This document shows positions 19,747 through 30,453 of a stretch of 40,730 bases of DNA, one piece after another (the stretch's first letter is position 1; the number at the start of each line of letters is the position of its first letter). The stretch lies in the NCBI GenBank assembly GCA_944325815.1, contig CALVBV010000004.1, forward strand, positions 1 through 40,730. The letters run 5' to 3'. The position numbers and the translations under genes were made by a program. The notes below the pieces were generated by a model, which was given only the letters and a program-made list of their open reading frames with translations, ran no database searches and was not told the origin of the DNA. The stretch is from Candidatus Gastranaerophilales bacterium. GTDB lineage: Bacteria; Cyanobacteriota; Vampirovibrionia; Gastranaerophilales; Gastranaerophilaceae.

Positions 19747-20223
19747 ATGACTATTGCAATCTATCCGGGCAGTTTTGACCCGATTACAAACGGACATATT
19801 GATATTCTGAAAAGCGGGGCTGAAATCTTTGATAAAGTTATAATCGCAGTCTCTTATAACATTAATAAACAAGGCTTTCTGCCGGTTGATATTCGCGTGA
19901 AACTTATTGAAGAAGCTGTTAAAAATATTCCTAACGTAGAAGTAGATAAGTTTGAAGGACTGACTGTAGAATACGCAAAAAAACGCGGCGCTTCTGTTCT
20001 TTTGAGAGGATTAAGAACCTCCTTTGACTTTGAATATGAACTCCAGCTTTCGCAGACCAACCACTCGCTTTATAATGATATAAAAACCGTATTTTTGATT
20101 ACAAAACCCGAGTACAACTTTATTTCATCATCCTGTGTACGCGAAATCCTTGTGAATAAAGGCGATATATCAAATTTTGTACCGCAGGCTGTTGCAGAAT
20201 ATCTTAATGGTGGTACTTTTTAA
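19747..20223 (+). CDS. coaD: Phosphopantetheine adenylyltransferase
   Basis: 158 aa, standard length. YPGSFDPITNGHIDIL contains the nucleotidyltransferase TxGH motif, and FISSSCVREI the ISSxxxR motif that binds ATP. RGLRTSFDFEYELQ is the conserved CoaD block. It catalyses the penultimate step of CoA synthesis: 4'-phosphopantetheine plus ATP to dephospho-CoA. The 3' end overlaps that of the hybrid cheA gene by 20 bases. Confidence 0.97.
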   Translation: MTIAIYPGSFDPITNGHIDILKSGAEIFDKVIIAVSYNINKQGFLPVDIRVKLIEEAVKNIPNVEVDKFEGLTVEYAKKRGASVLLRGLRTSFDFEYELQLSQTNHSLYNDIKTVFLITKPEYNFISSSCVREILVNKGDISNFVPQAVAEYLNGGTF

Positions 20224-23134
20224 GAACTTTTTCAATTTGTTTTGAAAAATCAACCTGATTAAAGTTGTCCTTTGAAACATAACATTCTATATCCATCCGT
20301 TTCAGCTTTTTAAGTGCAGTTTTTTCCGGCAGCGAGCTGATAACTATAATCGGAATATCTGCGTACATTTCGTCATTTTTCAAAAGTTCTATAAACTCAT
20401 AACCGTCTATTTTCGGCATTGTTAAATCGGTTATTATCAAATCATAATGCGTAAGTTTTAGTTTGACCAAAGCCTCCTGCGCATCCAGAACCGTGTCTAC
20501 CATATACCCTATATTAAGCAGAATATTTTTAATCATTGTTCTGGTCGTAACGGAATCATCTACTATAAGTATGCGTTTGTAAGAAAGCACATCCGCAGGA
20601 AGAAGTTTGGAGTTGGAAGCAATGGCTTTGTTAAAGTCATAATGCATTATATCCTGCATGTTAAGAATTAAGCACAGCTCGCCCGATGCAAGGTTAGTAA
20701 TTCCCGAAATATTTTTAACCTTATAAAGAGGCGGTGATAATTTTTTCTGCAGAATATCCTGATCGCCAAGAAGTTTATCCACAACAAGCCCGATAGTCTT
20801 TTCATCCGCTTCCAGAATCAGGATGGTCTCCTTGTCTCCTCTGGGAACCGGGTCGAGCTTCAATATATCCGACAGATAATAAAGAGGAATAATATTGCCG
20901 TCATATACAATTGAACGGGTGCCGTTGCTGGTATTAATTTCATCCTGTCTTTTTAGGATAAATGTCGTGATAACCTGAATCGGAATCGCAAAGATTTGCT
21001 CGGATATTTTAACAAGGAACACTCTTAATGTTGTAAGTGTTACAGGGATTTCAATATGTACGCAGCTTCCCTTGCCAAACTCAGAGATTACTTTTACTTT
21101 TCCGTTAAGCTGGGAGATTTTTGTTTTGACTACATCAAGCCCTATACCTCTGCCGGAGATACTGGTTATAGAATCTCCTGTCGTGAATCCGGGCCAGAAA
21201 ATGATATTCATTATGGCCTCATCAGTCATTGATTCTATATCTTCCTGAGTCAAAAATCCGCGGGATACCGCACGGTCTTTGATTTTTTCAAGATTAAATC
21301 CCTGACCGTCATCAACTACGTCTATTATAACTTTATTATCATCCTGTTTTGCTGATAATAAAATCTTTCCGACAGGATTCTTGCCGTTTGCAATACGCTC
21401 TTCTTTGGTTTCTATTCCGTGATCAATTGCGTTTCTTAATATGTGAATCAGAGGGGTTTTTATCTCTTCTATAATCTTCTTATCAGCGCAGGTATCTTTG
21501 CCTTCTATTTCAAAATCAATATCCTTGCCCTTTTCATTAGCAATATCCCGAACCATTCTTGAAAAAGAATTAAATACCGTAGATATCGGAAGTACACGGA
21601 TATTCTTAACCATTGATTCCATCTCGTCAATTATCAGGCGCATCTTCATATCATCCTCTTTGGATGCACGGTACAAAGAGTTTAAGTCATATATGGTTCT
21701 TGAAACATTCTGCGTGATGTCTGAAAGAAGCGAGAATACCTGTTTTACAAAAACTCCGGTATACTGGTCGGTACTGCCTGACTGCAGATATTTGCGGTTA
21801 TAATATCTTAAATAATTGGAAGTCTTTAGTAAATCCTTCTGGCAGTTTTCGTTTGCATTCTTTATGGAATCTATTTTCTCAAGGTTTTTCTCTGTCTTAA
21901 TCTTTGTAATAATAAGTTCGCCCAGCTGATTAACAAGCAAATCGAGCTTTTGCGCATTAACATGCAGAGTTTTTATCTCTGTTGATGAGGACGATTTATT
22001 TCCGCTAGATGTCTGTGTGGAAATATTTTTTATTTCGCTTACATCGTTTTCTTTTTTGTAATTAAGCTCAAGAAGCTGTTTCATAATCTCCAGCTGTTGA
22101 AGAATAAGATCGCTGTCTATACTTTCATTCGGCAGAGCGCAGTATTCCACGCCGCTTTTTAATGTCAGCATCATCTGTTCTTCCAGCTGGACGGAATTTT
22201 CTGTTATAAAATCAAGTATTTCAAGAATAATGTTTAATATCTCAAGGATATTAGTATCATCAATATTGGATTTTAACTTTAGGATATCTTCCTTTATCTC
22301 TTTAGAATAAACACAGCTTCCCTGAAGCATTGTAATTTTTTCTGCTACGTCAAAAAATGTTGTACCGCTCTCCTCTGTTTCAATACAGGAGGTCGTAAAT
22401 TTTGCCGCGGCAGAACTCAATTCATTTCTAAGCTCTAAGATTTCACTTATTGTGAAAGTATTTGTTGCATTCATGACAACTTCAAGCTTAGTAAGAATAT
22501 TTTCCAAAGAACTTTTTACTTCGTAGAGGTTTGAGTCTTTTAAATGGTCATATATATTTTGGACTTCTTCTTTTAATATAACAATTTCCTGTGACTCTTC
22601 TTCCGGTACAATGCTGTCAATTATTTCAAAACAATTATTGAAAGCCCTGTTAATCTCTTCTTGTTTTTCGGCGATTCCGGGTGTAATTTCCTGCGATGCA
22701 ATTGAGACAATACTTTCGGAGTCCTGAGCCTCTTTTATTTCGACTTCTAAAATATACTCCAGATTGGAAATGGTTGCGGAGTATTCATCATCTATGATTT
22801 CACGTTCATTTTTTATTGACTCCTGCAAATATCTGGATACAGCCTCCAAAGTTTTGGACATCATTGTTATAACATTCTGATCAAGAGAAAACTTATCATT
22901 ATTTACAGCATCAAAAATATCTTCCATTTTGTGAAGAATGTTTTGAATATTATTAAACCCGACCATCCGCACGGCACCCTTGAGGCTGTGTAAATCACGA
23001 TATACAGAGCCTATCAGATCCTTATCAGTGTGATTATTTTCCAAGGCAAAAAGATTACTGAAAATTCTTTCAATAATCTCTTCGGATTCTACCTGAAAAA
23101 TCGCCATTACTTCCTGATTATTGTCATTCTCCAA
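20204..23134 (-). CDS. cheA: Hybrid chemotaxis kinase CheA with C-terminal receiver
   Basis: 976 aa. The N-terminal Hpt domain has H49 in DLHSLKGAVRMVGF. A long, poorly conserved, mostly helical segment (about 130-390) follows, then the P3 dimerisation region, the HATPase core with ILRNAIDHGIE (about 565) and DDGQGFNLEKI, a CheW-like P5 domain, and a receiver (about 847-976) with D903 in IITDLTMPKIDG. CheA-receiver hybrids occur in cyanobacterial and myxobacterial pilus and other alternative chemosensory systems. TTG 23134 is the longest start; ATG 23107 (codon 10) with AGGA four bases ahead is an equally good alternative. It lies 18 bases after the methyl-accepting protein gene, as one operon. 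No CheR, CheB or stand-alone CheY is in the window. Confidence 0.9.
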   Translation of the reverse strand: MENDNNQEVMAIFQVESEEIIERIFSNLFALENNHTDKDLIGSVYRDLHSLKGAVRMVGFNNIQNILHKMEDIFDAVNNDKFSLDQNVITMMSKTLEAVSRYLQESIKNEREIIDDEYSATISNLEYILEVEIKEAQDSESIVSIASQEITPGIAEKQEEINRAFNNCFEIIDSIVPEEESQEIVILKEEVQNIYDHLKDSNLYEVKSSLENILTKLEVVMNATNTFTISEILELRNELSSAAAKFTTSCIETEESGTTFFDVAEKITMLQGSCVYSKEIKEDILKLKSNIDDTNILEILNIILEILDFITENSVQLEEQMMLTLKSGVEYCALPNESIDSDLILQQLEIMKQLLELNYKKENDVSEIKNISTQTSSGNKSSSSTEIKTLHVNAQKLDLLVNQLGELIITKIKTEKNLEKIDSIKNANENCQKDLLKTSNYLRYYNRKYLQSGSTDQYTGVFVKQVFSLLSDITQNVSRTIYDLNSLYRASKEDDMKMRLIIDEMESMVKNIRVLPISTVFNSFSRMVRDIANEKGKDIDFEIEGKDTCADKKIIEEIKTPLIHILRNAIDHGIETKEERIANGKNPVGKILLSAKQDDNKVIIDVVDDGQGFNLEKIKDRAVSRGFLTQEDIESMTDEAIMNIIFWPGFTTGDSITSISGRGIGLDVVKTKISQLNGKVKVISEFGKGSCVHIEIPVTLTTLRVFLVKISEQIFAIPIQVITTFILKRQDEINTSNGTRSIVYDGNIIPLYYLSDILKLDPVPRGDKETILILEADEKTIGLVVDKLLGDQDILQKKLSPPLYKVKNISGITNLASGELCLILNMQDIMHYDFNKAIASNSKLLPADVLSYKRILIVDDSVTTRTMIKNILLNIGYMVDTVLDAQEALVKLKLTHYDLIITDLTMPKIDGYEFIELLKNDEMYADIPIIVISSLPEKTALKKLKRMDIECYVSKDNFNQVDFSKQIEKVLKKYHH

Positions 23135-23152
23135 GGTTCTCTGCGTCCTTTA

Positions 23153-24199
23153 TTAGTTTTCTACTGCCGAATTTTTAATCTCTGCTGACAATTCGCCGAG
23201 TCGTGATATTTTATCTTCGTTAATTCCGATTGTTTGAACAAGATTCTCTGCAATACGGGTATTTTCTTCATCAATGCTGTTTAAGCGTTCAATGATGTCG
23301 TTTTGTTTCTTGGCGTTTTGATTTAATATATCCAAAGACTCCAGAATTTCTTTTATAAGATTCAAAAGTATTTCGGAATTTGACGAAACATTATTAATAT
23401 CTTTTACAACGGATTCAATCTCTTTAGAGCCTTCTTCTGTAGCCATAACAGTGGAGTTTGTCGTGTACTGTATATTGCTTGTAAGCGATGTAATCTTTGT
23501 AATAGCCTGTTTAGATTCATCTGCAAGTTTTCTGATTTCTCCGGCAACAACCGCGAACCCTTTTCCGTGTTCTCCTGCTCTTGCAGCCTCAACAGCAGCA
23601 TTCAGGGCAAGCATATTGGTCTGTTCCGCAATATCATCAACAACATTAATAGTGTTGCCGATTTGCTGGGAGTGTTCTGAAAGCTCAAGTATAAGTTCTG
23701 CTATCATTTGAATCTTTTGTCTTAAAACAAGCATTTTCCCTGCGTTAGAAGAAATCGCTTCGTGTTCTTTTTCTGAGAAGTTTATTGATTGAGTTACCTG
23801 CTTTTCAGTATTTTTAGAAGTTGTTACAGCTTCTTCCGAAAGCGCTTTCAATTTTTCTACGAGAGTGGAAATATTTTTTGTATTGGAAGTCAAATGTTCA
23901 AAAACTCTTTTCTGGGTTTCTATAGAATTAAGAATTTCGTCGCTCGTTTGGGCGAGTGAATCCGACTGGGAAGTCATGGATTTCTTAATAGTTCTTAATA
24001 TCCACTGTTTTGTTATAAGATGTACTGCAACATTGATTACGGCTATTATTGCCAAAAACACAATCGCATCATAAGGCGGAAGCTGTTTCAGCCTTGCAAA
24101 AAACATAAACAATATGCAGGTTATTATAAGCATTACTATATCTATTGAACATTTTAAATTAAATTTTTGTTTCAATCCTAAATTCCAATCATTAAGCAC
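23153..24199 (-). CDS. Methyl-accepting chemotaxis protein with minimal sensing region
   Basis: 348 aa. Two transmembrane helices (about 19-37 and 45-65) are separated by only about seven residues, so there is no periplasmic ligand domain. The cytoplasmic coiled coil carries the conserved hairpin tip [38 protein letters not shown], here at about residues 190-225, which docks CheA and CheW. It probably senses a membrane or cytoplasmic state, or a partner protein. The GTG start at 24199 is supported by AGGAG four bases away. Upstream of and co-transcribed with hybrid cheA; divergent from the diguanylate cyclase gene. Confidence 0.9.
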
Positions 24200-24282: not shown

Positions 24283-25737
24283 ATGGCAAAGATTTTATTA
24301 GTAGAGGACAGCGATACCCAGCTGAAGTTTTTAAAAGAAGGGCTTATCCAGAAAGGTTTTGAGGTAGAGACTGCAACAAACGGCGCAGAAGGGTATAAAA
24401 AGATTTTTGAATATGTGCCGGATTTGGTTGTATCGGATATTCTAATGCCTGTAATCGACGGGTATCAGCTTTGCAGAATGATTAAAAATGTCGATGAGAC
24501 AAAAAAAATTCCGGTCATTCTGCTCACTGTTCTTGATAAAAAAATAGACAGCTTCTGGGGTAAAAAAGCGGGTGCACAGTTATTTTTGTCTAAATCCATT
24601 GATATTAATGAGCTTGCAAGAAATATTAACGCAACGCTCAGAAGATATCCGCTTACGGAGGAGTATAAAGCCTCAATTTCCGTTAACACAAATAAAGACA
24701 ATTCCGCACAAAGCAGGCTTAACACAATTCTAAACGACCTGCTTCTTAAATCCGTATTTGCTAACGAATTTAGAAACCTCAGTGACTTTATGAATTACGA
24801 AAGAATTTTGGTGGAAAAACTCTTTTCTCTTCTGAGTTCTTTTGTAGAATACCATGTTGCGGGAATTTTCTTTGCATCGCCGGATGATTTTGCAGAGAAT
24901 ATTTTGTATATAGACACGCTTGGCAGAAATCTGCCTAAAAGCGTTCTTTCAGATATAGAATACGACTTTTTCCGTAAAATGGAAGAATACAGAACTTTCA
25001 AAAATACAAAATTTGAAGTAGTAAGAATGCTTTTGGGAAATGAGCTTGATTATAAATTTACGGATTTAACGTCCAAAATCATTATCCCTCTGATTTTTGA
25101 TAAGAAGCTTATCGGCGGAATCTGCTTCTATACCCGTCAGGATATGGATTATGCTTCATTCAGATATTTTGATATTATGATAAGCGAACTTCTCGCTATA
25201 TTTAAGATGAAATATCAGTATACGGAAAAAGAATTTATGTCCGTTCTTGACGGACTGACAGGGCTTTATAACAGACGTCAGTTTGAAATCAGCTTAGAGC
25301 AGGAACATAACCGTACAAAAAGACATCCTTCCGATTTCAGCCTTGCAATCCTTGATATTGATTTCTTTAAAAAAGTCAATGATACGCACGGTCATCAATA
25401 CGGGGATTATGTGCTGAAAACGGTTGCGGACTTGATGAAATCTGCATTCAGAAAAACAGACCTGCTGTACAGATACGGCGGCGAGGAACTTGTTATGATT
25501 ATGCCGGAAACCAACATTGAAGGGGCAGTTATCCCTGTTCAGCGCCTGAGGAGGATGGTTGAAGAATATGATTTTAATTACAACGGAGTAAAGGCCAAAG
25601 TTACGGTAAGTATAGGGCTTACAATGAATTATCAGGAATTTAATACTCCGGCTGATATTCTGAAATCGGCAGATGAAGCTTTATATAAGGCAAAAGAGAG
25701 CGGAAGGAACAGGGTAGTATTGTATGAACAGCAATAA
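24283..25737 (+). CDS. PleD-like diguanylate cyclase: receiver, linker and GGDEF
   Basis: 484 aa. The receiver domain (1-120) has phosphoacceptor D52 in VVSDILMPVIDG. The middle about 180-310 looks GAF-like (IIPLIFDKKLIGGICFY). The GGDEF domain has the active-site GGEEL at 399-403 and an intact inhibitory I-site RKTD at 390-393, exactly five residues before it. It should make c-di-GMP under phosphorylation control with product feedback. Placed divergently from hybrid cheA, it is a natural phosphotransfer target. A -10 TATAAT at 24247-24252 gives a short leader; the ribosome site (GGA, 12 bases away) is weak. Confidence 0.92.
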   Translation: MAKILLVEDSDTQLKFLKEGLIQKGFEVETATNGAEGYKKIFEYVPDLVVSDILMPVIDGYQLCRMIKNVDETKKIPVILLTVLDKKIDSFWGKKAGAQLFLSKSIDINELARNINATLRRYPLTEEYKASISVNTNKDNSAQSRLNTILNDLLLKSVFANEFRNLSDFMNYERILVEKLFSLLSSFVEYHVAGIFFASPDDFAENILYIDTLGRNLPKSVLSDIEYDFFRKMEEYRTFKNTKFEVVRMLLGNELDYKFTDLTSKIIIPLIFDKKLIGGICFYTRQDMDYASFRYFDIMISELLAIFKMKYQYTEKEFMSVLDGLTGLYNRRQFEISLEQEHNRTKRHPSDFSLAILDIDFFKKVNDTHGHQYGDYVLKTVADLMKSAFRKTDLLYRYGGEELVMIMPETNIEGAVIPVQRLRRMVEEYDFNYNGVKAKVTVSIGLTMNYQEFNTPADILKSADEALYKAKESGRNRVVLYEQQ

Positions 25738-26725
25738 CTATATCGAACAGAAAAAGAATGCGCATCTGTATTTTAAGCTCGGCGGGAATAAATATGCAAT
25801 AAATTCCGACAATGTGCTTGAAATAATGAAGCTTCCGGCTTTGGAATATCCTCAGAAACTCCCTAACAATGTTATCGGACTTCTCAAGTATAACAACTTT
25901 GTTATTAATGTTGTGGATATTAGATTCTACCTTGATATAAATGTCACGCCATATAACGTTAATAACGAACTTCTTATTGTTAAGACCGATGAAATTATTT
26001 TAGGGCTTATTACAGACAAAGTTATAGGTATTCAGTCTTTTGACTCTGCGCTTACGGATGCACTGCCGTTTGTGGATAATAAAACGGTCGTAGATTCGAT
26101 ATACAAGTACAAAGACGAAACCATCTATATTATAAACATTTATGCTCTGGAAAATATCTTAAAACAGCATGATGTGTATTCATCAACGAATATTCCGGCT
26201 CTTTTCCCCAAGGATGAAGATTCTCTTGCCGTGATGAATGAAAGAACTACGGCAATTTTGGAAAAGGCCGGCATAAAGCTGGCATCGGCAGAATTGTATG
26301 TTAAAAATAAATATATATCGCTGAATTTAAACGAAGATTTTTACTGTATAGCACTTGATTATGTGCGGGAGGTTTTGAAAGATACAGTCATTACTAAAAT
26401 CCCGGGCCTGCCGGATTTTATAGCAGGTGTCATGCATCTTAGGGGGGATTATATTACGGTGATTGACCTGAAGCGTTTTTTGAACCTTCCGGCTTCTAAA
26501 CAGAGTGCCGATAAAAATCCTGTAATTATAATAAAGTGTAATGAGCTTAAGCTGGCGCTTTTAATAGACAGGATAAATGAATTATTTGAATTTCAGGAAA
26601 GCGATATTTCGGAGAGCTCAGAGGGGTATTATTCAAGCGAGTTTATGTATAACAATGTCTTATACACGGTATTGAATGTAGAAAAAATATCTTCTGACAA
26701 AAAGATTATTATAACGGATATGTAA
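25724..26725 (+). CDS. Double-CheW coupling protein
   Basis: 333 aa with two CheW-like domains in tandem. The first covers about 10-150 (NNVIGLLKYNNFVINVVDIR); the second about 190-325 has the canonical LPDFIAGVMHLRGDYITVIDL. Single CheW is about 150 aa, so this is a duplicated coupler, able to bridge receptor and kinase arrays. It overlaps the diguanylate cyclase gene by 14 bases and shares its operon. Together with the divergent receptor and CheA it completes a signalling core. Confidence 0.88.
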   Translation: MNSNNYIEQKKNAHLYFKLGGNKYAINSDNVLEIMKLPALEYPQKLPNNVIGLLKYNNFVINVVDIRFYLDINVTPYNVNNELLIVKTDEIILGLITDKVIGIQSFDSALTDALPFVDNKTVVDSIYKYKDETIYIINIYALENILKQHDVYSSTNIPALFPKDEDSLAVMNERTTAILEKAGIKLASAELYVKNKYISLNLNEDFYCIALDYVREVLKDTVITKIPGLPDFIAGVMHLRGDYITVIDLKRFLNLPASKQSADKNPVIIIKCNELKLALLIDRINELFEFQESDISESSEGYYSSEFMYNNVLYTVLNVEKISSDKKIIITDM

Positions 26726-26827: not shown

Positions 26828-29467
26828 ATGAGGCAGTTTAAAAAGAAGACGATAGCGTTAGTATTGGCTTCGGTCGTAACGGTAGTCGGGGCTTTTGGCG
26901 CAGAGAACTATAAGAATAGCATAATGTCGCTCAAGTTTGACAGCGGCTCTCCTGACAGTGTCAAATTAACTGTGTCGACCAAAAAGGATTATGCAGGTAA
27001 ATTAAACCTGGTAAAGCGTGATGCCGGAACTTATGTTTTAATACTGCCGGATACTAACTGTGAAATAAAAGATAAGGTTACTCTCGGGCATGGGGTACAA
27101 AATTACAGTATAACAACAATGCCTTATACAACCAGCAGCAACGGTTACACCAAAATAACAATAAAAACACTGCCAAATATATTACTTCAAGCGGAAAAAG
27201 CTCTTTATGTGACGGGTGAAACTCCTGCTCAGATAGAAACCGCAGAGTCTTCAAATCCTCCTGAAGCTGCACCGCAGGAAGAGAATATGTATGAACCAAT
27301 TCCTGTGCCTGTTTATGATGAACCTGTTCAAGAACCTGTTGAGTATAGAGAGCAGGAAAGGCCTTCCACAATACATTCCCAAAGCGGGGTCGCTCAAACC
27401 GGGAGTGTTGATATAAGAGAAAGCGTCAGACAATTTGAACCGGGACCGGAAGAGGAAAGCTATGCACAAAGTACGGTCTCAGAGGAGGAATCTTCTGCTG
27501 CATCAAATGTTCCGGCGCAGAGTTCCGGCAATGATATCATTTTATTTGTCTTAGGGTTTCTGCTTATAGGCTGTATCATAATATTTCTCTTCATCCGTGC
27601 TCAAAATAGTATGAAAGACCTGCTTGGAGAGCAGGAAGGCATTGATTTTACAGATGATGCGCCAAAAGCGAAAAAAACAAAAAAAGAAAAGAAGAAAAAA
27701 GAAAAAACTAACATTAAAAAGGCTGTAAGATCGCTGGATAAAATGTATACCAAACCGGAAAAGATGCCAGTGAGCATGATAACTGATTCTGTGCCTGCAG
27801 CTGCCACGACCCCGGCACCGGAAATTGAAGAAGAGCCGAATATTGTGGATTTGGATGAACTTTTCCAGGAAAAAACTAAGTCGGAAGAAAGCCCGGCTAT
27901 TGAGGAAGATGAAGAAGAGAACTCCGCCTTAGAAGAATTTCTCTCTGCGTATAACTTTGATGAGGACGAAGAAGGTGAGGAGGAAGAAGAATCCGGGGGA
28001 TTTGACGAGGAACTTTATGAGAAGTATATTCAAGACGGCAATCTGAAGTTTTCGGGCGACGATATCGACAAAATAAACAAGCTGCTTAATTCTGAAATTA
28101 ATGATGATACATTGAGAAATATTAAAGAATACGCTCTGCCGAGTCCGCAGGAAGAAAAGAAACGTTCACAGGAAGAAATTCTTGCAGATTTGGTTACGAC
28201 TTATGCTATAGATCAGAATATAACATTTACCAAAGAGGATATTGATGCACTAAATAAACTTATATCCGTAGAGCTGGATGATGACTTTATAACCGATTTA
28301 AAAACTGATCCCGGTTTGCTTAAAACAAAGGCGGAAGAAATTGTAAATGAAAATGAGAAGCCTCATAAAACTTCCGAATTACTGACCTTAAATGTAAAAG
28401 ATATGCTTCCTGACTTGTCGGAAGCTCTCAAGAAACAAGGCGGGCGCCGGATTGAATCGGAAGTGAAACCTTCAGTCGTATACTACAGTGAGGGATATGA
28501 CGTGAGTATTCTGTCTTTGAAAGATAAACTTCCGGATTTATCAATCGAACTTCATAATAAAGACGCGTATAAATCCAGACCTTCTGACGAAATAGAATAT
28601 GCAGAATCAGGTTATGATGTTGCTCAAATGCATATCGCAAATGAACTGCCCGATCTGCGTGATGCCTTAAAACATCCGGAAAAGTACGAAAAGAAGCCGG
28701 AAAAAGCTGTTGTTGCTGATGAAGAAACTCTGCTCAAAAATATTACTAATGTTTCGTTCAAACCTTTTTATGACGGCTCGGAGAGTTTTGAGGTAGTAAA
28801 CCAGTTTGACGATTCTAACGCGCCGAGTGTTTCTGATGTACAGAAAGAGTTCAGTCAGTTTGGTGATTTAGAAATTGTGAGAGAAGACGATTACGATGTT
28901 CCGGTGAATGCTGATAAAGAATACGATGATTTTGTGTCTTTGTATGATAACAAATATCTTGATTTTGATAAGCCGACTTTTTTAAACAATTCGGATAAAA
29001 CTCCGGAAGAGCTTGACAAAGAGCTTGATGATATGATTAGGGAAGAGTCTCAGAAAAATATTCGCAAAAGAGATGAGGATACTGAAAAACTGCTTAAATC
29101 AATACAGGAAAAGCAGACAGAAGAACCGGAGGAAGAACCTGTTTCTACAGAGCCAGAGCCTGTGACTATTGAAAAAACCTGTGTGATGGACGGGGTTAAA
29201 TACGACATAGTCGGCGAGGTTGATTTTAATGATAAAATCAGATGTTGTCTCGGGAAAAATTCTGACGGATACACGGTTATAGGTTTTAACGGCGATAATA
29301 CATTCAAGATGAAACAATATGACAGCCTAAATACAGAAAAGATTAAAGCACGTGCGAGCGAAAAGCTTGATGATTATTCTACAAGATATATAGTGCGTGT
29401 AGACAGCCATAAATTTATCGTAAATGTGTCGGAAGATAATCTCGAATTTGTAATGGATTTATGCTGA
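26828..29467 (+). CDS. Large acidic membrane protein with AMIN-like exterior and intracellular repeats
   Basis: 879 aa; no named family recognised over most of it. A signal peptide (residues 1-25) is followed by an AMIN-like beta domain (about 30-110), a Pro/Glu-rich stretch, one transmembrane helix (about 236-256, IILFVLGFLLIGCIIIFLF) and a Lys-rich patch. A long acidic cytoplasmic part follows. Two 60-residue-period repeats, NLKFSGDDIDKINKLL (about 402) and NITFTKEDIDALNKLI (about 462), precede three about 40-residue repeats centred on DMLPDLSEAL (525), DKLPDLSIEL (566) and NELPDLRDAL (605). The architecture recalls FimV, a pilus-associated scaffold, which would fit the chemosensory neighbours. 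There is no Shine-Dalgarno, and a -10 box ends eight bases before the ATG. Confidence 0.7.
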   Translation: MRQFKKKTIALVLASVVTVVGAFGAENYKNSIMSLKFDSGSPDSVKLTVSTKKDYAGKLNLVKRDAGTYVLILPDTNCEIKDKVTLGHGVQNYSITTMPYTTSSNGYTKITIKTLPNILLQAEKALYVTGETPAQIETAESSNPPEAAPQEENMYEPIPVPVYDEPVQEPVEYREQERPSTIHSQSGVAQTGSVDIRESVRQFEPGPEEESYAQSTVSEEESSAASNVPAQSSGNDIILFVLGFLLIGCIIIFLFIRAQNSMKDLLGEQEGIDFTDDAPKAKKTKKEKKKKEKTNIKKAVRSLDKMYTKPEKMPVSMITDSVPAAATTPAPEIEEEPNIVDLDELFQEKTKSEESPAIEEDEEENSALEEFLSAYNFDEDEEGEEEEESGGFDEELYEKYIQDGNLKFSGDDIDKINKLLNSEINDDTLRNIKEYALPSPQEEKKRSQEEILADLVTTYAIDQNITFTKEDIDALNKLISVELDDDFITDLKTDPGLLKTKAEEIVNENEKPHKTSELLTLNVKDMLPDLSEALKKQGGRRIESEVKPSVVYYSEGYDVSILSLKDKLPDLSIELHNKDAYKSRPSDEIEYAESGYDVAQMHIANELPDLRDALKHPEKYEKKPEKAVVADEETLLKNITNVSFKPFYDGSESFEVVNQFDDSNAPSVSDVQKEFSQFGDLEIVREDDYDVPVNADKEYDDFVSLYDNKYLDFDKPTFLNNSDKTPEELDKELDDMIREESQKNIRKRDEDTEKLLKSIQEKQTEEPEEEPVSTEPEPVTIEKTCVMDGVKYDIVGEVDFNDKIRCCLGKNSDGYTVIGFNGDNTFKMKQYDSLNTEKIKARASEKLDDYSTRYIVRVDSHKFIVNVSEDNLEFVMDLC

Positions 29468-30453
29468 AAAAAATCATAGTATTGTTTTGTATTCCGTTTA
29501 TTCTTTGTTCCTGCACGCAAGAGGGATTAACTTTTGCCTCGTGGGGGTCTGTTACAGAGGTACAGATTCTTAACCGCGTAATTTCAGATTTCGAAAAAGA
29601 AAATCCGGATATAAAGATTAATTTTATTCACATACCGCAGAATTATTTTCAGAAATTACATCTTCTGTTTGCCTCGTCTCAGGCACCGGATGTTCTTTTT
29701 ATCAATAATTTATACCTGCCGCTTTATGCCTCGCATTTAGCGGATTTAACAGAGGAGGTAAACTCAAAAGATTTTTATCCTCAAAGCTTAAATGCATTAA
29801 GTATTGAGGGTAAGATTTATGCAATTCCGAGAGATATTTCTACCCTTGTTTTTTATTACAATAAGGATTTGGTTACACTACCGTCAGAGTGGACATTCTC
29901 CGGCTTTATTTCTGCGCTTGAAAGTTCAAAAGGCGATTATGCCGTGAGTTTTGAGCGGGATATTTATTGGGCGATGCCTTATGTTTTAACTCTCCAAGAG
30001 GATGAAGGGATTAAGTTTTACAAGAACTTAGAAGGAAAATATGCGCCTAATCCGTCTCAGGTAGGAAGTTCCACTCTTGCCCAGATGTTTTTGGACGGCA
30101 AAATTGCGCTCTATCTTTCAGGAAGATGGATGTATCCTAAAATCTCAGAAACAGCAAAATTTCCTTTCGGTATAATAAATTTTCCCGGAGAAGTTCCTGC
30201 AGACGCGTCAGGCTGGGCTATTTCAAAGGATTCCAAACATAAAGACGAAGCTTTGAGGTTTATAAAATATCTTTCTTCTAAAGAATGTATCGAATATTTT
30301 GCCCGGACAGGACTTATTGTTCCTGCACGCAGAGATGTTGATTTTAAAGATAATGAAGCGTTTATAAAGAGTATTAAAAACTCCAAAGTAATTGCAGTAA
30401 GCAAAGATTACAAAAAAATTACCGACAAGAAGAATAAAGAATTGTTTAATTAG
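29461..30453 (+). CDS. Extracellular solute-binding lipoprotein, sugar ABC type
   Basis: 330 aa. A signal peptide ends in lipobox LCSC, so the mature protein should be lipid-anchored. FASWGS near the N terminus, PDVLFINN and IPRDISTLVFYYNKDL match family 1 solute-binding proteins (maltose/oligosaccharide type), and GWAISKDSKHKDEALRFIKY is the usual C-terminal motif. It is shorter than typical members (about 400 aa), with an abbreviated C terminus. No permease or ATPase genes adjoin, so it may be an orphan or a sensory binding protein. The ATG overlaps the preceding gene by seven bases, tying it to the AMIN-protein operon. Confidence 0.85.
   Translation: MLKKIIVLFCIPFILCSCTQEGLTFASWGSVTEVQILNRVISDFEKENPDIKINFIHIPQNYFQKLHLLFASSQAPDVLFINNLYLPLYASHLADLTEEVNSKDFYPQSLNALSIEGKIYAIPRDISTLVFYYNKDLVTLPSEWTFSGFISALESSKGDYAVSFERDIYWAMPYVLTLQEDEGIKFYKNLEGKYAPNPSQVGSSTLAQMFLDGKIALYLSGRWMYPKISETAKFPFGIINFPGEVPADASGWAISKDSKHKDEALRFIKYLSSKECIEYFARTGLIVPARRDVDFKDNEAFIKSIKNSKVIAVSKDYKKITDKKNKELFN

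Follow-up and report, generated by a model that had tools for sequence, protein, structure and literature searches.

An AMIN-type membrane protein with a long acidic tether and tandem FliO-like units in Gastranaerophilales

What kind of protein places two unrelated families of repeats on a long acidic chain behind a single membrane helix, and what might it do next to a set of chemotaxis genes? This question is raised by an 879-aa protein encoded in the 40,730-nt stretch of Gastranaerophilales DNA analysed here (the window). The DNA comes from an uncultured member of this group of non-photosynthetic relatives of cyanobacteria, and the best named relatives of a gene neighbouring the focal one came from Gastranaerophilales metagenome-assembled genomes. 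The features of the window and of the focal protein are as follows.

20204-24199, minus strand: CheA-REC hybrid kinase and MCP-like protein (Pfam)
24283-25737, plus strand: REC-GGDEF protein (Pfam)
25724-26725, plus strand: tandem CheW, upstream neighbour in 21/32 genus genomes
26828-29467, plus strand: focal protein, 879 aa (open reading frame list, orthologues)
26828-26899, plus strand: predicted signal peptide, residues 1-24, among the better-kept stretches of the protein (sequence)
26903-27214, plus strand: AMIN-type periplasmic domain, residues 26-129 (model, structural ranking and Pfam matches in members)
27215-27529, plus strand: periplasmic linker, Pro/Glu/Ser-rich, residues 130-234, low predicted order
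27530-27598, plus strand: transmembrane (TM) helix, residues 235-257 (hydropathy; helix 235-266 in the model)
27839-27874, plus strand: conserved acidic motif NIVDLDELFQEK, residues 338-349
28001-28147, plus strand: module A1, residues 392-440 (E 4.5e-10 against A2)
28163-28342, plus strand: module A2, residues 446-505 (profile-profile match to A1)
28376-28438, plus strand: module B1 with LPDL, residues 517-537, holding the best-conserved block of the protein
28493-28603, plus strand: module B2 with LPDL, residues 556-592
28610-28720, plus strand: module B3 with LPDL, residues 595-631
28748-28771, plus strand: NVSFKPFY motif, residues 641-648, second among the blocks in conservation
29171-29335, plus strand: FliO-like unit 1, residues 782-836 (profile comparison, all-beta model)
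29336-29464, plus strand: FliO-like unit 2, residues 837-879 (profile comparison, all-beta model)
29461-30453, plus strand: solute-binding lipoprotein (SBP_bac_8), whose start overlaps the stop of the focal gene; a near-invariant partner (Pfam, neighbourhood)

The preliminary description of this locus had seen an acidic cytoplasmic chain behind one membrane helix, and this was confirmed: a Lys-rich segment comes after the helix at residues 235-257, and residues 258-879, the cytoplasmic part, carry a net charge of -72 with 25% D/E. It had also assigned the protein to no known family, and scans of the whole protein against Pfam and NCBIfam indeed gave nothing reliable, with no end-to-end family match and no Pfam match for the focal protein itself. 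Sequence searches of the PDB with profiles of the whole protein, the N-domain, the C-domain and the repeats gave no credible match, and a promoter and terminator scan of the DNA found no more sites than in shuffled sequence. Two folded domains had been overlooked, one in the periplasm (26-129) and one at the C-terminus (782-879).

Residues 26-129 modelled alone reached a mean pLDDT of 94. Foldseek with this domain alone returned nothing below E 0.3, and AMIN surfaced only in VIA re-alignment, in which the AMIN domain of AmiC (4bin; Z 6.8, 93 residues, 3.2 A) ranked first and that of PilQ (4av2; Z 6.1, 84 residues, 2.7 A) second; Z-scores of 6.1-6.8 are modest alone, with unrelated receptors coming next at Z 5.9. 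Pfam AMIN (PF11741) matched 5/31 members (best E 0.0016), and the domain is predicted to lie in the periplasm behind a signal peptide, as expected of AMIN. Each of these lines is modest, and they agree on an AMIN assignment. The domain would share its fold with the AMIN domains of PilQ and AmiC, although beyond that fold a secretin (PilQ) and an amidase (AmiC) have nothing in common with the focal protein.

At the other end, residues 782-879 are all-beta in the model (pLDDT about 84-88). The window protein itself has no Pfam FliO match. Among its relatives, Pfam FliO (PF04347) matched 6 of 20 members, two of them above the curated cut-off of 22 bits (28.5 bits for L113 and 27.0 bits for L111), and NCBIfam FliO aligned over the same C-terminal region with a score under its cut-off. 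In profile-profile comparison with a same-order FliO alignment, the two C-terminal halves gave E-values of 4e-5 and 2.7e-7, against 0.49 for the AMIN-type domain and 0.008 or worse for column-permuted controls, all of them values from single pairwise comparisons and not from database searches. The matches in relatives together with the profile comparison suggest that the C-terminus consists of two tandem FliO-like units. Lectin and propeller blades brought up for the C-domain by Foldseek with the whole model (E 0.05 or worse) were taken as a generic beta meander.

A FliO is already encoded beside fliP in this genome, so the focal protein is a divergent, extra FliO-domain protein. The conventional FliO (146 aa, L172:8282-8722) is encoded directly before fliP, fliQ and fliR (G000:C29); it has the FliO beta unit in common with the focal protein, but only one such unit, and neither AMIN domain nor tether. 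Like a FliO, the focal protein combines one TM helix with a cytoplasmic beta-sheet domain, yet about 520 residues separate the two, and its gene sits with a lipoprotein gene rather than with fliP in a fliOPQR-type cluster. A further FliO-like protein of 267 aa (G000:C23, L171:6423-7226), with signal peptide, TM helix, FliO and then IPKIEIP-type repeats, is encoded away from the export-gate genes.

The genomes are flagellated and export gates are present. The gate at G000:C29 (L226:11090-15197) encodes a FliMN_C protein, FliO, FliP (212 aa), FliQ, a 122-aa secreted protein with no Pfam match, and FliR. The focal genome has a second FliP gene, in the cluster at G000:C22 (L213:3634-10046), which encodes FliP (252 aa), FliQ, FliR, FlhB and FlhA without FliO. 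FliP was matched in 116/117 family genomes; the C29-type gate is near-universal in the family, while two FliP genes occur in 48/116 genomes and are strongly associated with CheW; 54 genomes of the family combine a single FliP with the absence of CheW. In one genome a 577-aa flagellin with a GLUG motif (L220:5591-7324, G207:C2) lies just downstream of a fliO-type fliOPQR cluster.

FliO is known to be structurally diverse and to occur outside flagellar operons as well, and AMIN-FliO proteins of Campylobacterota, Myxococcota and other phyla serve the export gate; in Campylobacter jejuni the AMIN domain of FliO supports FlhB stability and amphitrichous flagellation (PMC12403147). The focal protein shares with them a periplasmic AMIN domain, one TM helix and a cytoplasmic FliO beta domain. 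It differs in having two tandem FliO-like units where they have one, about 520 residues with genus-specific repeats between the TM helix and these units, a gene that is not beside fliP and is followed by a lipoprotein gene, and a conventional FliO in the same genome. Our literature search brought up no paper that treats FliO together with Gastranaerophilales, and the tandem units, the very long tether with its docking repeats and the pairing with a lipoprotein gene appear to be undescribed.

The repeats within the tether are as the preliminary description had them, two A modules of about 60 residues and three LPDL-bearing B modules, except that B1 is a short one in which about 20 residues match. 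Profile-profile comparison of orthologue alignments linked A1 with A2 (E 4.5e-10) and the B modules with one another (B1/B2 E 2.1e-8, B2/B3 2.3e-11, B1/B3 2.5e-7), with the remaining 32 segment pairs at E 0.018 or worse; no relationship between A and B emerged, in line with the view that the two families are unrelated. Three LPDL motifs arose in 0/20,000 shuffles of the cytoplasmic part. Among 32 orthologue sequences, window included, three intact copies of LP[DN][LMF] were present in 20, two in 11 and one in 1, and B1 was intact in 32/32. The LPDL segments had been described as helices, for which the model gives weak support (pLDDT about 37-62). The three best-conserved 10-residue blocks, 521-530 (LPDL1), 641-650 (FKPF) and 551-560, have pLDDT values of 37-51, and the motif blocks overall combine top conservation with pLDDT 37-57. 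High conservation at low predicted order is more in keeping with binding motifs than with a folded domain, which suggests from sequence and model that LPDL may act as a docking motif, as first proposed, and that the conserved short motifs of the tether probably dock other proteins.

Orthologues or fragments were found in 32/33 other same-genus genomes searched, with 33-71% identity to the window protein in the alignment used. Absence of the repeats from orthologues would have told against the preliminary description; the repeat region was present in 32/32 extracted sequences. When an order sample of 241 genomes was searched with a profile of the repeat region, 19 same-genus genomes were matched and nothing convincing was found outside the genus; a marginal match in G067 (E 6e-4) has no LPDL motif and was dropped as chance. 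The A and LPDL repeats are thus, as far as the profile reaches, a genus-level feature. The tandem-FliO domain was matched in 115/117 family genomes, two of them only weakly, and the focal protein is a member of a protein family that spans the order and varies in its tether; in most of the order's families the lipoprotein gene comes directly after it. In other lineages this tether is short, or acidic with other repeats, or (families f2 and f3, judged by eye) replaced by an SDR-like segment. Three relatives in family f6 (L138:5902-8790, L113:6967-9093 and L150:5533-8304) have a tether with acidic tandem repeats of another kind, for example QQAEPIEEVVPEQEITAEDFE, and the f2/f3 proteins at L112:5434-6981, L114:5240-6592, L115:6763-8376 and L118:2842-4146 show an AMIN-type domain, a TM helix and, by eye, a degenerate SDR/Rossmann-like segment.

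We tentatively favour, as somewhat less than an even bet, the explanation that the protein is a scaffold of the inner membrane, anchored to the wall, with a head derived from FliO and docking motifs that are particular to the genus. This is proposed by analogy with the polar landmarks FimV/HubP, in which the region between the TM helix and the C-terminal domain sets species-specific function (PMC12918733). FimV/HubP share with the focal protein a wall-binding-type periplasmic domain, one TM helix, a long, acidic, variable region and a small conserved C-terminal domain, and their hosts are likewise flagellated. The preliminary description had called the protein FimV-like, and a true FimV/HubP homologue diverged beyond recognition would have this layout (PMC12918733); the likeness stops there. 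Where FimV/HubP have a LysM-like periplasmic domain and a TPR-type FimV domain, the focal protein has an AMIN domain and an all-beta tandem FliO domain, with no sequence match between them: LysM gave no match at E <= 1 in 31 orthologues, and the FimV/TPR C-terminal domain gave none at E <= 1 among the Pfam and NCBIfam matches listed. We rejected FimV kinship on the AMIN/FliO-type ends and the absent LysM/FimV matches, and regard hidden homology as very improbable. That the protein is instead the dedicated FliO of a flagellar-type gate, for example of the fliPQR-flhBA cluster at C22, would suit its FliO-like units, the export-gate role of AMIN-FliO proteins in other phyla (PMC12403147) and the lack of a fliO next to fliP in that cluster. 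We nevertheless consider it improbable, with the 146-aa FliO already beside fliP at C29, the 267-aa FliO-like protein at C23, and a C22-type FliP in only 48/116 family genomes against a tandem-FliO protein in nearly all.

The remaining alternatives draw on the neighbouring genes. The preliminary description hinted that the LPDL motifs might recruit the adjacent tandem CheW and CheA, and the motifs are conserved and poorly ordered in the model. The tandem CheW adjoins the focal gene in 21/32 same-genus genomes that have both, a count from coordinates in which contig ends may hide a few; the two are unlinked in the rest of the genus, for example 12-13 kb apart on one contig in G010 and G026, and the LPDL region was undetected in other CheW-bearing genera. 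Beside CheA-REC, the small MCP-like protein has only the MCP signalling domain in Pfam. About half of the family genomes lack CheW, and all of the CheW-less genomes tallied (57/57) keep the protein family. Adjacency in only 21/32 genomes and retention in all 57 suggest that chemotaxis is not the core role, and the implied chemotaxis partner is further weakened by the near-invariant neighbour being the lipoprotein; we hold a chemotaxis dock to be slightly less probable even than a dedicated FliO. In 30/30 family loci from 12 genera the next gene downstream, overlapping or no more than about 40 nt away, is that of the lipoprotein, and it also directly follows in 7 loci of two further families. 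Stop and start usually overlap, and the lipoprotein may be the true partner of the focal protein. The window lipoprotein has a lipobox-like LCSC; lipoproteins of this genus have about 330-375 aa, compared with about 400-470 in the order's other families. An ABC permease gene was found neither beside the window gene nor beside its counterpart in the order relative examined. Such an orphan lipoprotein could sense a ligand and contact the AMIN-type domain, with the signal passing through the TM helix to the tether and FliO-like head and chemotaxis proteins as one possible output in this genus; genes for REC-GGDEF, CheW, CheA and MCP proteins are adjacent in the window. Against such an envelope sensor, families f2, f3 and f4 have the genes for the AMIN-TM protein and the lipoprotein apart, the near-complete genome G015 keeps the focal protein without the lipoprotein, and the known role of AMIN-type domains is to bind the wall, not to act as receptors. 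We consider the sensor unlikely, though the strongest of these alternatives; the scaffold role, for its part, does not explain the near-invariant lipoprotein link.

The architecture of AMIN-type domain, TM helix, acidic tether and tandem FliO-like units is well supported, while binding to peptidoglycan, location in the cell, docking and client identity are what we infer. As a scaffold, the protein would bind peptidoglycan through its AMIN domain, probably at the septum or the poles, and cross the inner membrane with its single helix. The acidic tether of about 520 residues, with VDLDELF, two A modules, up to three LPDL modules and FKPF, would allow multivalent docking of cytoplasmic clients. 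The head of two tandem FliO-like beta units probably descends from FliO, an assembly factor of the flagellar-type export gate, and it likely continues to face that gate or some other membrane complex. The choice of clients would depend on the genus-specific repeats, around a family core of AMIN domain, TM helix and tandem FliO that is usually encoded with the lipoprotein.

In its widest form, which we regard as doubtful, the proposal is that Gastranaerophilales have an order-wide, wall-anchored landmark family that evolved from FliO and not from FimV, does not depend on chemotaxis, usually has an orphan lipoprotein encoded alongside, and gains lineage-specific multivalent docking repeats such as A and LPDL in a variable acidic tether between its AMIN-TM part and its tandem FliO. 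If this is right, evolution would have recruited a flagellar export-gate factor to serve as cytoplasmic head in a FimV-like scaffold, and a lineage next to the cyanobacteria would have reached the FimV layout by convergence. It would extend the published structural diversity of FliO and its occurrence outside flagellar operons, and it would offer, for an uncultured animal-gut group, specific and testable candidate docking motifs (LPDL and FKPF) together with a candidate partner lipoprotein.
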